From the NCBI GenBank assembly GCA_903875445.1, contig CAIQWD010000016.1:1-64000 (forward strand): a stretch of DNA of 64,000 bases, written 5' to 3'. The translations under genes and the position numbers were made by a program. This DNA comes from an uncultured delta proteobacterium. Lineage in GTDB: Bacteria; Desulfobacterota; Desulfobulbia; Desulfobulbales; Desulfocapsaceae. Shown here piece by piece: positions 45,323 through 50,290 of this stretch (position 1 is the first letter of the stretch; every line of letters begins with the position of its first letter). The notes under the pieces were generated by a model. It was not told the DNA's origin. It ran no database searches and saw nothing but the letters and a program-made list of their open reading frames with translations.

Positions 45323-47554
45323 TCATTTGGCCCGGGGCTGACGGTAATACCACTGAAGTTGATCCGGACTGCTGTCCTCATCCACATTCTCACTTGCTAA
45401 TTTCTTCTTCCCCTTGGCGGTTGGCAACAATTCTTTCAGCTTCCACACACCATCCAAGCGGCCGAAAGTCCAGAATTCTTCAAAAGGCTCCACATCTTCC
45501 TGCGCGCTCCAGACTGCGCTGCCTTTGTAAAGAATTCTCTGGGCATGGGCGTTGATTCGCACAGTAAACTCATCTCTGGCCCGATCCGTGAAGTTTCGCA
45601 CCAGAATCAACTCAGCTTTCCGAACACAGATATTACGGTACTCGACCTTTAATCCCTCTGCTTGCCATTGGATGAGCTGATTTTGAAGACTGTCGGCGAC
45701 CTCGGGAAAGAGATCAGCAGTCGGTATTTTTGCAGAATCTCCGGATTCCCTTGCTAGGTAAAGATTCATAAAAACTTGCCGTGCCCGTTCCAGCATTGAA
45801 TTACGATCCCAAAGTTTATCGGTCTGAACCAAAAAGTTCAGCATGCGATCAATACGGGTAATTTTCTTTTCGACGTTTTTTTCAAGCCAGGGACCGGCCG
45901 GTCCGCTTTGCCCGGCGTTTTCCGCGTAAATCCCTTTGATTGTTTGGTCCGTAAGCATCTCCGCAAAGTTTTCATCCTTGAGAACCTCCGACTCTCCGGC
46001 TTGCTCAATTTCCCTCAGGAGCCAAATTCCGCCAGAAAAATGGAAGACCAAAAATTCCTGAAATGTGGCAGACGCACGGTCGCCGCGCAGAAATTTCCCG
46101 GTACGGTCATCCACATAGTAATCGCGGGCCGAGGCAGTAATCAGAGCAGTAAATTCCCGCTGGTCCGGTTTCTCAGTGTACCGGACATTGACGATATCAA
46201 TGTGTTGAATAGCGAGCGTCTCGATGCGGTTGATCTCATGATTGCGGGTAAGCCCCTCAAGCTGGACCAAGTGCTGCGTGAACAAATCCTTAAGGAGAAG
46301 CGGTGCCATCGGGCTGTACTCCCTTTTCTCCCAGCATTCCTGGAGCTTGAGAAATACCGTTTCGGCAAGTTTTCGTAAAGCATCTGCAGAAACCGATGCG
46401 TCCTGGTGGCTCAAAAAGGTCAGGAGCTTTTCGGTTTTTGCTGCTTTTGCGGCTATGGCTTTTCGACTGTAGACGAAGTCAAGATTCTGCTTTTTCGTCT
46501 GTCTCCTGCTTGCGGCAATCACCAGAATGATCACCACCGCAATGACGATAAAAAAAACCACAAAGCCAAAAAAGGGTATGGAATCGTCGGAAGAACCGCC
46601 GCTTCCCGAACTGGAACTGGAGCTGGAATGGCTCGAACTGGAATGGCTGGAGCCTCCGCCGCCACCTTTGTTATGGACCGCAAGATGGTCGACAAAAAAA
46701 GTGTTGGGATAGTCTGTTTGCAGGTTGAAAACCGCGACCGACTCCCGCACCGACTCTATGGAAATAATGGGTTGCCCGGTTAATGATTGACCATTCCAGG
46801 CCATGATCTGGTCGCCGGTGCGGAGTGCCTCCACAGTCTTAAATCTACCCTCACCAACGGAGAATGGATGATCGACAGTTACTCGAACCATCTGCTGCTC
46901 GGTCTTGAGCACGACAAATTCCTCGACCGTTCGCCGTAGAACCGTCTGCACCTTTGTCTGCACAAGCCGGCCCTCCGGCGTAAAGGCCAGAAGAGTCTCT
47001 CCTGCCTCGACCTTGCTGATGGGAAGCTCTGTTCCATCAGGTTTCAGGACCATGGTTTCGGGGAGAAAACACCCCTTGTTGTGTACCACAAAACCAGAGG
47101 AAACAAAGGTTCCGGCGGGACTGACCATCAGGTTAAAAGCCGGCAGCGTTGCTTTTGCAGTATGTATGGATTGGATTGGCGTTTTAAAAATTGCCCCATC
47201 CTTTGCAAGGTAAACAGAATCACCGGTATGCAGACGACCGGCAACCAGGAATTCACCCATGGCGACCATGATGGGATGTTCCTCGGTGACTCGCAACGTG
47301 TCACCGCCGGCCAGAATCTCCAAGATCATTTCCGGCTTGACAACCGCAACCCCCGCGACTTCTACCTCTTGCAAACGCCCGGCTGCAAAGCCTATGACAT
47401 GATCACCGGGCTTGAGCCTTTCAATGGCAGTTGAACCCGTCGGGGTCAAGACCTGTGTTCCTTCTTCGAGGCATCCACCTCCACCTCTCGCCCAGCAAGG
47501 ATTCTGACCAAGGAAAATGGCGAGGAGCAAGGTAAACCCGATAATCCATTTCAT
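45323..47554 (-). CDS. Membrane protein with two tandem Hint domains and two Tim44-like domains
   Basis: 743 residues from the ATG 9 nt after GGAG. Signal peptide 1-22. Hint 1 (28-159) starts at Cys28 (CLEEGTQVLTPTG), has the TEEH block (Thr90-His93) and ends VVHN. Hint 2 (162-295) starts at Cys162 (CFLPETMVL), has TVDH (226-229) and ends AVHN. Neither is followed directly by Cys/Ser/Thr; the next residue is Lys. A Gly/Ser/His linker (296-323) leads to one membrane helix (326-349). The cytoplasmic part has two Tim44-like repeats (~363-518 and ~563-710), each ending in a conserved W-x-L-x-E-x strand (GGIWLLREIE, DGVWKLKELL). So the Hint pair faces the periplasm. Neighbours are a DUF350-like gene and lemA, a membrane-stress context. 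Confidence 0.85.
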   Translation of the reverse strand: MKWIIGFTLLLAIFLGQNPCWARGGGGCLEEGTQVLTPTGSTAIERLKPGDHVIGFAAGRLQEVEVAGVAVVKPEMILEILAGGDTLRVTEEHPIMVAMGEFLVAGRLHTGDSVYLAKDGAIFKTPIQSIHTAKATLPAFNLMVSPAGTFVSSGFVVHNKGCFLPETMVLKPDGTELPISKVEAGETLLAFTPEGRLVQTKVQTVLRRTVEEFVVLKTEQQMVRVTVDHPFSVGEGRFKTVEALRTGDQIMAWNGQSLTGQPIISIESVRESVAVFNLQTDYPNTFFVDHLAVHNKGGGGGSSHSSSSHSSSSSSSGSGGSSDDSIPFFGFVVFFIVIAVVIILVIAASRRQTKKQNLDFVYSRKAIAAKAAKTEKLLTFLSHQDASVSADALRKLAETVFLKLQECWEKREYSPMAPLLLKDLFTQHLVQLEGLTRNHEINRIETLAIQHIDIVNVRYTEKPDQREFTALITASARDYYVDDRTGKFLRGDRASATFQEFLVFHFSGGIWLLREIEQAGESEVLKDENFAEMLTDQTIKGIYAENAGQSGPAGPWLEKNVEKKITRIDRMLNFLVQTDKLWDRNSMLERARQVFMNLYLARESGDSAKIPTADLFPEVADSLQNQLIQWQAEGLKVEYRNICVRKAELILVRNFTDRARDEFTVRINAHAQRILYKGSAVWSAQEDVEPFEEFWTFGRLDGVWKLKELLPTAKGKKKLASENVDEDSSPDQLQWYYRQPRAK

Positions 47555-47600: not shown

Positions 47601-47870
47601 CTAATGGAGTGCAGCGATGATACCGCCCAGGACCGCGGCCGCCGCAACAATGCTTACGCCAAGAATGGCCGCAGCCACCACCCTCCCAAAATATTCGCCA
47701 ACTGCTGTGTTGCCGCGGGCAATTTCCTTATGTTCGTCAATATTCGGAGTCATTCGATCAATAAGCCCTGGAAGTATCAACGATGATGCAATGACCATCG
47801 CCATCCCGACTAAGCCACCGATTATTGAAAAAACCATCGCCCAGCCGATGCTGTAAATCGTCTCTGTCAT
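47601..47870 (-). CDS. Small DUF350-like membrane protein
   Basis: 89 residues with two strong membrane helices (~8-36 and ~62-88). Between them, DEHKEIARGNTAVGEYF matches the 'RGNxAVA' signature of DUF350, a two-helix family of unknown function found with LemA, PspA and Tim44-like proteins. A strong ribosome site (AGGAGG) precedes the ATG. It sits 15 bp after lemA and 46 bp before the Hint-Tim44 gene, so the three genes form an operon. Confidence 0.75.
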   Translation of the reverse strand: MTETIYSIGWAMVFSIIGGLVGMAMVIASSLILPGLIDRMTPNIDEHKEIARGNTAVGEYFGRVVAAAILGVSIVAAAAVLGGIIAALH

Positions 47871-47885
47871 GGGGACCTCCTTTTT

Positions 47886-48443
47886 CTAAAATTTCACTTT
47901 GGGAGCCAACCTTTCTTCCGAGGCGTCAACCTGAAAAAAAGCCTCGGGCTGAAAACCGAACATGTTGGCGATGAGATTGCTCGGAAAGACTTCAACCCGA
48001 TTCTTATACCGCATGGCTGCATCGTTATAATACTGCCGCGCAAAGCCAATTTTATTCTCAGTGCCGGCCAATTCTTCCTGAAGTGACAGGAAGTTTTCAT
48101 TGGCTTTAAGCTGTGGGTACGCCTCGGCCAAGGCAAAGAGCGAACGCAGGCTGGATGAAAGGGCGTTTTCGATCTTGGCCTTTTCTTCCACGCTGCCGGA
48201 AAAATTGATGGCCTGTTGCCTGGCATTGACAACTGCCTCAAGGGTTTGCCGCTCATGGCCGGCATAGCCCTTGACCGTTTCAATCAGGTTGGGAATGAGA
48301 TCATATCGGCGCTTGAGTTGCACCTCAATGGAACTCCAGGCGCTTTTGACTTCATTTCTGCCTCGAACCAGCCCGTTATAAGCTCCGATCACCCAAAAAA
48401 ACACTGCAAGCCCAACAACAATGACAACGATCAAAGGTATCAT
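47886..48443 (-). CDS. lemA: LemA family protein
   Basis: 185 residues. One N-terminal membrane helix (~3-21) with the short outside stretch typical of LemA, then a coiled helical cytoplasmic domain: YNGLVRGRNEVKSAWSSIEVQLKRR, YDLIPNLIETVKGYAGHE, then ENKIGFARQYYNDAAMRYKN and FPSNLIA. Standard LemA features and length. LemA proteins are thought to act in membrane maintenance and stress; their exact role is unknown. First gene of the operon. Confidence 0.92.
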   Translation of the reverse strand: MIPLIVVIVVGLAVFFWVIGAYNGLVRGRNEVKSAWSSIEVQLKRRYDLIPNLIETVKGYAGHERQTLEAVVNARQQAINFSGSVEEKAKIENALSSSLRSLFALAEAYPQLKANENFLSLQEELAGTENKIGFARQYYNDAAMRYKNRVEVFPSNLIANMFGFQPEAFFQVDASEERLAPKVKF

Positions 48444-49213: not shown

Positions 49214-50290
49214 ATGAAAAACTCTCTCTTTATAACCCTCTGTATTACCGCCCTCCTCCTTGTCTTGGGAACAATCATCGGAATCACCGGCAACAAAGAC
49301 CATCCGCGCGCCCAGGAGGTGCCAAAGACAACCGAAAAAGCCCTTTTTGCCGGGGGCTGTTTCTGGTGCATGGAAAAGCCCTTTGAGGCGCTTGATGGGG
49401 TACTCTCCGCCACCTCCGGCTATGCCGGCGGGACGACGAAAAACCCGACTTACCAGGATTACGGCGCCGGCGGCCACATTGAAGTAGTGCAGATTATCTA
49501 TGATCCGCAGAAGATCTCTTATGCCCGGCTGCTCGACACCTTTTGGCGGCAGATCGATCCGACCGACGCCGGCGGCCAGTTCGTCGATCGCGGACATCCC
49601 TATATTTCCGGGATTTTTTACTATGACGACAGCCAGAAAAAATTAGCCGAAGAATCAAAGAACAATCTTCAACGCAGCGGAATCTTTACCGGCCCGATAG
49701 TAACACCGATCGAACCGGCCCCGGAGTTCTGGGCGGCGGAGGAATATCACCAGGATTATTATAAGAAAAACCCCCTCCGTTACGCCTTCTACCGAAACGG
49801 CTCCGGACGCGACAACTTTCTGAAAAAGCACTGGCAAGGCAAAGAATTCACAGCGATACAGGAAGACAAACCCAAGGATCTCCGCAGCCGACTCACCCCC
49901 CTGCAGTACAAGGTGACCCAGGAAAACGATACCGAACCGCCCTTCGAGAATGTTTACTGGAACAACAAAGAGCCTGGTATTTATGTCGATATCGTTTCCG
50001 GGGAACCGCTGTTCAGTTCAGTGGATAAGTTTGATTCGGGGACGGGCTGGCCGAGTTTCATCCGGCCCCTGGTACAAGACAATATCGTCGAACATTCGGA
50101 TCGGGTATGGCTGACGGTCAGGACGGAGGTGCGCAGCAAGAAGGCAAATTCGCATCTGGGGCACGTCTTCAATGACGGCCCGCCGCCAACTGGTTTACGC
50201 TATTGCATCAATTCTGCCGCGCTGCGATTCATCCCGGCCGACAAGCTTGGCCAGGAGGGACTTGAGGAATACACCGCCTTGTTCCGGTAA
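49214..50290 (+). CDS. msrAB: Membrane-anchored fused methionine sulfoxide reductase MsrA-MsrB
   Basis: 358 residues. An N-terminal hydrophobic helix (~4-24) anchors or exports the protein. MsrA (~40-200) has the active site GCFWC (Cys49, Cys52), GYAGG and GQFVDRG. MsrB (~213-355) has [26 protein letters not shown] with catalytic Cys331 and NS after it. Together they repair both S and R stereoisomers of methionine sulfoxide. The anchor implies a periplasmic role, like PilB/MsrAB of Neisseria but without the thioredoxin domain. GGAG precedes the ATG. Confidence 0.93.

Follow-up and report, generated by a model that had tools for sequence, protein, structure and literature searches.

Hint domains are known from several kinds of protein. 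The Hog domain of hedgehog proteins is not known to have a C-terminal Asn cyclisation site. Class 1 inteins need a Cys, Ser, or Thr at position +1, directly behind the terminal Asn. A-type BIL domains have no such nucleophile and can splice in part: excerpts of PMC4031507 describe how a thioester is formed, the Asn is cyclised, and the new amine attacks the thioester. The N-terminal step involves Cys1 and the block-B His (block names follow excerpts of PMC7765530). The accessible part of PMC7664689 reports that BILs give mostly cleaved products, and that of PMC5874633 places them in variable, non-conserved regions of their hosts. In the BUBL systems of Tetrahymena, which have more than one BIL per protein, the BIL2 domain (PDB 6Y75/6TMM) has a Gly-ended upstream motif, RGG (excerpts of PMC9200820), which we presume to stand before Cys1, and it is reported to be linked through an isopeptide bond to the epsilon amine of a Lys (excerpts of PMC8616854).

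The gene analysed here lies on the reverse strand of the window, by which we mean the whole stretch of 64,000 nucleotides, at 45323..47554. Its translation and the comparison with its family give a protein of 743 aa plus stop, for which the earlier note had claimed two Hint domains, one membrane helix, and two Tim44-like domains; Pfam, NCBIfam, an AF2 model, Foldseek, and hydropathy all bear this out. The protein, whose features are all on the reverse strand, begins with a putative signal peptide (residues 1-22, 47489..47554), a short hydrophobic start followed by xWA/RGGGG (here and below the slash marks a cut or the edge of a Hint). The cut at xWA/R is predicted from the sequence and the family starts, and the hydropathy scan did not flag this region. 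The family alignment then delimits an N-extein RGGGG (residues 23-27, 47474..47488). Hint1 (residues 28-159, 47078..47473; C28, TEEH, HN159) is separated by a Lys160-Gly161 spacer, seen in the sequence and the family (47072..47077), from Hint2 (residues 162-295, 46670..47071; C162, TVDH, HN295). Cys28, Asn159/Lys160, Cys162, and Asn295/Lys296 are present in the translated frame as that note had claimed. Both Hints are identified by Pfam, NCBIfam, fold match, and family, and Hint1 also by a PDB sequence match. Behind them come a Lys296-GGGGG and Ser-rich linker read from the sequence (residues 296-326, 46577..46669), a transmembrane helix predicted by the AF2 model and hydropathy (residues ~328-350, 46505..46573), a first Tim44-like domain (residues 384-516, 46007..46405; Pfam, fold match), and a second one (residues ~558-699, 45458..45883; Pfam, NCBIfam, separate model, fold match).

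The profile search that had been proposed for Hint and Tim44 recovers both above the Pfam cut-offs. PT-HINT (3e-14) matches in two stretches, together with Hint and Hint_2, and Tim44 (PF04280) also matches in two, with 71.6 bits against a cut-off of 29.6 (9.6e-20). NCBIfam adds intein_Nterm (1.3e-8), again in two stretches. Among PDB sequences, the BIL domain 2LWY matches best, over Hint1 (E 7e-9). The AF2 model of the protein (11 family members) has a mean pLDDT of 75 and a pTM of 0.41. Its residues 28-159 and ~160-297 match inteins, BILs, and hedgehog in Foldseek and VIA (VIA Z up to 22.3, in rows that span residues 28-297 only), with the Tetrahymena BIL2 as the top fold match of the Hints and 2LWY also high. 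The Tim44 part was modelled apart; this C-terminal part alone reaches a pLDDT of 81 and has yeast Tim44 as its top fold match (E 1.5e-6). The hydropathy scan gives a single long hydrophobic segment (residues 321-354) with basic residues after it, which suggests that the Hints would lie outside and the Tim44 part inside. In one family member (L004, 3974-6139) the linker contains no transmembrane segment, so that its Tim44 part may lie elsewhere than in the cytoplasm.

The architecture recurs across genomes in 14 other proteins: 10 relatives came from a scan of GTDB contigs and four from a search of the phylum (G105, G142, G177, G187), making a family of 15 with the window protein. Another phylum match (L017, in G234) is identical in sequence to L008 and was counted once. 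The earlier note spoke of a pair of Hints, which is correct for the window protein, but across the family the array has two (eight proteins), three (five), or four (two) of them. All 38 readable Hint units of the 15 proteins follow the scheme G/Cys...His-Asn/Lys, and the arrays tile without leftover as RGGGG, C...HN, KG(n), C...HN, etc., with units of 132-134 aa. The units were cut out by these motifs; had any unit lacked them, a merged stretch would have remained, and none was seen. RGGGGC occurs in all 14 family proteins with a start in the same frame; L005 has no start, and a contig end of its genome (L101) has one, ending in FARGGGGC. Only six of the 135 columns of the unit alignment are invariant (C1, G13, H66, G73, H131, and N132), four of them catalytic (C1, the block-B His, and the terminal His-Asn), and T63 of the block-B TxxH is kept in 37 of the 38 units. 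This pattern of conservation points to active self-processing in the family and lends support, at the level of sequence, to the earlier proposal that both Hints could autoprocess. That four of six invariant columns are catalytic also argues against inert Hints, retained as folded extracytoplasmic modules; arrays of two to four could serve as spacers, but we regard such retention as very unlikely.

Identity, calculated without the archaeal units, is 48-59% for units at the same position of the array and 27-32% for units at different positions. The tree has clades by position, i.e., H1 (13 rows, 99/97), H2 (14 rows, 100/98), and H3/H4 (9 rows, 99/97), with two archaeal units outside them on long branches. 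Such clades suggest an old duplication and long separate selection. The array would thus be old, every position having kept its catalytic residues.

The Hint-Tim44 array is real and conserved, and it is a variant of the A-type BIL kind. It shares with the BIL of C. thermocellum (2LWY) the Hint fold, Cys1, TxxH, the terminal His-Asn, the lack of Cys, Ser, or Thr at +1, and a variable low-complexity setting, here a Gly/Ser-rich tail of varying length. It differs from it in the direct tandem of two to four Hints, in the Lys always found at +1 (38 of 38 units), in the Gly on both sides, and in the host, a Tim44-like membrane protein whose neighbouring genes are conserved. The same Lys sets the family apart from class 1 inteins, whereas the His-Asn at the end of every unit distinguishes it from hedgehog Hog domains. 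A canonical-looking intein ending in HN/C lies in a phage-type terminase of one phylum genome (L046, G308). The PT-HINT domains of polymorphic toxins belong to the same superfamily and match the same Pfam model, yet the readable ones in our sample end in HN/N, S, A, T, D, or C, and in our family Tim44 follows instead of a toxin. A toxin reading was rejected, since Pfam shows no toxin family behind the Hints at E 1 and PADLOC gave no hit to any of the three proteins of the operon (E 0.01).

Judged from the Hint-free Tim44-like relatives, most of which have an R-x-GGG tail in this position, the array is set into a Gly tail at the N terminus and interrupts it. The tail motif [AGS][RK]x(0-3)GG is found in 36 of the 40 such relatives whose loci were compared, e.g., as RAGGGRS, RGGGGGHSGG, or FARGGGGGHSGG (L153); one of the 36 matches (L156) is a chance match upstream of the actual tail, ADARGGGGSHFSGG. 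Among the four misses, L032 reads AQRAGGGRS, and no start in frame was found for L024, L152, and L155. In the family, RGGGG stands directly ahead of the array and Gly(n)-Ser behind it; removal of the Hints with ligation would therefore restore a tail like that of the Hint-free relatives. These TimA-like proteins have in common with the window protein the hydrophobic start, the R-x-GGG tail, the Gly-rich stretch, and the Tim44 domain. The window protein differs in that it has two Tim44 domains and that its tail holds a Hint array, and it stays below the NCBIfam cut-off for TimA (NF033779; 34.9 against 80 bits). In a protein from a Chloroflexota sample (L153, 414-2043), the tail reads RGGGGGHSGG, Hints are absent, and two Tim44-like repeats can be made out by eye; it is a possible Hint-free counterpart.

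We prefer a reading, to which we give a probability of roughly 0.5, in which the tandem A-type-like BIL domains excise outside the cytoplasm and at least partly religate RGGGG to Lys-Gly. The host would be an exported Tim44-like protein anchored in the membrane, and the array would sit within its Gly-rich tail at the N terminus. Following export, the Gly-Cys1 bond of each Hint would become a thioester, the last Asn of each Hint would cyclise and cut the C-terminal side, and the freed Lys amine would attack the Gly thioester. The Hints would then depart, leaving a short tail like that of the Hint-free relatives, in which RGGGG is bonded directly to the Lys-Gly(n)-Ser linker, with hydrolysis or C-terminal cleavage alone giving side products. 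The purpose could be a delayed or triggered maturation of the tail. The computations show the architecture, the fold, the invariant residues, the gene neighbours, and the Hint-free relatives, whereas we infer export, all of this chemistry, and the ligation; the residues kept in the family all fit the chemistry of A-type BILs described in excerpts of PMC4031507. The earlier note had held that a Lys after Asn precludes normal splicing. This is right for the transesterification route of class 1 inteins but does not extend to A-type BILs, which can ligate without a +1 nucleophile (same excerpts). Its idea that autocleavage would release periplasmic pieces needs narrowing: if the signal peptide is cut, N-terminal cleavage alone would free RGGGG only.

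It is also conceivable, if unlikely, that the Hints perform C-terminal self-cleavage only, Asn cyclisation shedding the Hint block and exposing a Lys-polyGly N terminus on the remainder anchored in the membrane, with no ligation. BILs are reported mainly to cleave (accessible part of PMC7664689), which favours this outcome and weakens the case for ligation, and one group of phage proteins has an HN/K-polyGly Hint at the extreme N terminus of the frame. Yet cleavage of this kind would need neither Cys1, nor the block-B His, nor RGGGG, all unvarying in the family (RGGGG in 14 of 14), which suggests that the N-terminal step is used and favours ligation over shedding. Excision with ligation is further supported by the nearest PDB sequence being a BIL, 2LWY, which is a high structure match too. 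Several observations weaken it. Among the phage HN/K-polyGly Hints, 10 of 31 located starts are at about residue 2 of the frame, leaving almost nothing to join. In these 31 phage Hints, Cys1 often follows a residue other than Gly (C 10, S 7, and D 5, against G 9), and given this variation the phage Hints do not share the Gly-thioester side. Hint1 and Hint2 in the window are separated by two residues only, and a Hint-free or decayed form may exist in one genome (G158, see below).

The unvarying Lys demands further explanation, because an alpha-amine would be available from any residue. Among the other Hints of our samples with a readable end (which 7 of the 14 loci of the +1 survey have), HN is followed by N, S, C, A, T, or D, and by K in a single archaeal protein. 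An archaeal protein of 1609 aa (L172, G510) has two separate Hint stretches, one ending in HN/KK. In IMG/VR contigs, 38 of 41 DNA matches to HN-K-GGGGG are Hint C-termini (E < 1e-3, family-unit profile); these amount to 19 distinct 12-residue ends, with many near copies. At a stricter database size, 35 of these matches, chosen for their Lys, pass, and the Hint-framed matches are 39 in all, with K in 35. A viral scan with the +1 codon left open gave at least 120 stretches, 80 of them listed. Among the 80 matches listed, 14 are Hint-framed (K 10, G 3, S 1), and only two of the 66 others have K, both of which resemble Hint ends too. In the 116 matches separable from the Lys-chosen set, 13 are Hint-framed at the stricter size (K 9, G 3, S 1). 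Searching GenBank phages with Hint2 (tblastn) returned six records, all below 60% identity, and in two of these, from Ruminococcus phages, the Hints end in HN/S or HN/A. Seven phage host proteins were scanned: three (L176, L186, L189) match families of tail protein J, and the other four have matches to Gly-rich or unnamed families or almost none at all. Further proteins (L175, L180-L182, L193, L198-L200) are alike in sequence to these three tail-J proteins with HN/Lys-polyGly Hints. An unrelated host protein of 1916 aa, on a 133-kb viral contig (L173, 1012-6759), has three tandem Hints, joined by KDGG and by Lys plus a long Gly run. These phage and viral examples indicate that Lys and oligo-Gly behind a Hint are not tied to Tim44.

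The Lys could have another role, its side chain attacking the Gly thioester to form an isopeptide bond, intra- or intermolecular, as reported for the Tetrahymena BIL2. We find this doubtful. Its presence at +1 in all 38 family units, and in 10 of the 14 Hint-framed HN-x-polyGly junctions among the 80 viral matches listed, where +1 was unselected, argues for such a role, as do the reported epsilon-amine bond and the RGG motif of BIL2 (excerpts of PMC8616854 and PMC9200820), the top fold match of the modelled Hints. Against it, G and S also occur at +1 among the viral matches listed, and the acceptor Lys of BIL2 is proposed to lie in the neighbouring Ubl domain rather than at +1 (excerpts of PMC8616854), which makes BIL2 a precedent and not a proof. 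The family resembles BUBL proteins in having more than one BIL per protein, in the Gly-ended motif, and in the Lys, there the reported acceptor, but it has no ubiquitin-like domains (no ubiquitin family in Pfam at E 1; the spacers are KG(n)), its Lys stands directly at +1, and its setting is the bacterial or archaeal envelope. More speculatively, and we think improbably, HN/Lys-Gly(n) Hints could be an autoprocessing class of their own, so far unrecognised and common to phage tail proteins and to the Tim44-like membrane proteins of bacteria and archaea. In this class the side-chain amine of Lys+1 would take the oligo-Gly thioester. If true, Hint arrays would yield envelope proteins that are cross-linked or branched by isopeptide bonds (BUBL-like), with no need for ATP or enzymes. 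The open-access literature on BILs, Hints, tandem inteins, and Tim44-like and phage tail proteins does not, in its accessible portions, describe such a class.

The distribution of the family is patchy. In the phylum sample, 68 of 395 genomes match the family profile at 1e-15. Seven of the 68 have the double-Tim44 family, with Hints visible in six and G158 as the seventh; the remaining matches are one terminase intein (G308) and 60 over one Tim44 stretch only. In 97 related genomes, including its own, the other matches are three Hint-free proteins only, and none of the 14 other genomes of the genus, some of them incomplete, matches the profile. The family protein is carried by 4 of 5 genomes of the order of G142. 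A Diapherotrites archaeon carries one member on a contig of 307 kb, where five of ten frames beside the gene have any family match (including GlyRS above the cut-off and aNOP56 below it); this member is the sole full match in 87 genomes of its phylum, ten others matching over Hint parts only. The Anaerolineales label of another carrier, on a 4.7-kb contig (L007), may be due to misbinning; of 251 genomes of its phylum, 11 match the profile and none has a further family member. In one member (L006, 3615-5848), the reading frame is broken in the Tim44 region, by sequencing error or decay. The DNA pattern HN-K-GGG matches in 26 of the 395 genomes, six being the family and 20 lying outside any Hint frame, and it is uninformative alone, since a reversed control matches in 23 genomes. 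Plasmid carriage was considered and rejected: in the seven matching records the match never extends over 80% of the protein, and by annotation they are four toxin-type Hint proteins and three others.

This patchiness, with 0 of 14 in the genus, is what selfish intein-like insertions without benefit to the host might produce, but we consider them highly improbable, given that 132-134 aa leave no room for an endonuclease, that the clades are position-specific, and that a partner protein is confined to six Hint carriers in 297 phylum genomes. This partner is a small membrane protein of 89 aa (47601..47870, reverse strand; Pfam, hydropathy, family loci), which we call DUF350-like only, because it scores 23.3 bits against the Pfam cut-off of 26. 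It is found beside 15 of 15 family genes, and in 8 of 8 further carrier genomes. LemA (47886..48443, reverse strand; Pfam, family loci), conserved in the bacterial members, is found beside 14 of 15. Both precede hint-tim44 in the window and in 12 of 12 bacterial loci that include this flank. At the archaeal locus there is the small protein and no LemA match. The L005 locus is cut, and LemA and the small protein adjoin the gene start on the other contig of that genome. In G158 (estimated as 99% complete), the gene is cut by the contig end (L047) with only its Tim44 end in view, and both the small protein and an HNKGGG match are absent. This may be a Hint-free or decayed relative, or the missing stretch may hold the Hints and the small protein. 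The argument from neighbours is slightly weakened by G158 and gains from the eight further carriers. Our guess is that the mature protein probably acts together with LemA and the small protein at the membrane. A gene for an MsrA/MsrB-like methionine sulfoxide reductase is also found near hint-tim44 in the window (49214-50290) and around the archaeal copy (L011).

The earlier note knew of no described role for such a protein, and the open-access literature, in the portions available, yielded none for the Hint-Tim44 architecture. The family provides a native array of self-processing domains in a putatively exported protein, each position kept apart by selection, with an unvarying Lys standing where inteins need Cys, Ser, or Thr. 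Given the array together with relatives that lack Hints and neighbours that are conserved, the old question of the purpose of A-type BILs becomes testable, and one can ask which outcome, ligation or cleavage, has been selected. If the Lys were the acceptor, the array would be a new ATP-free protein ligase.
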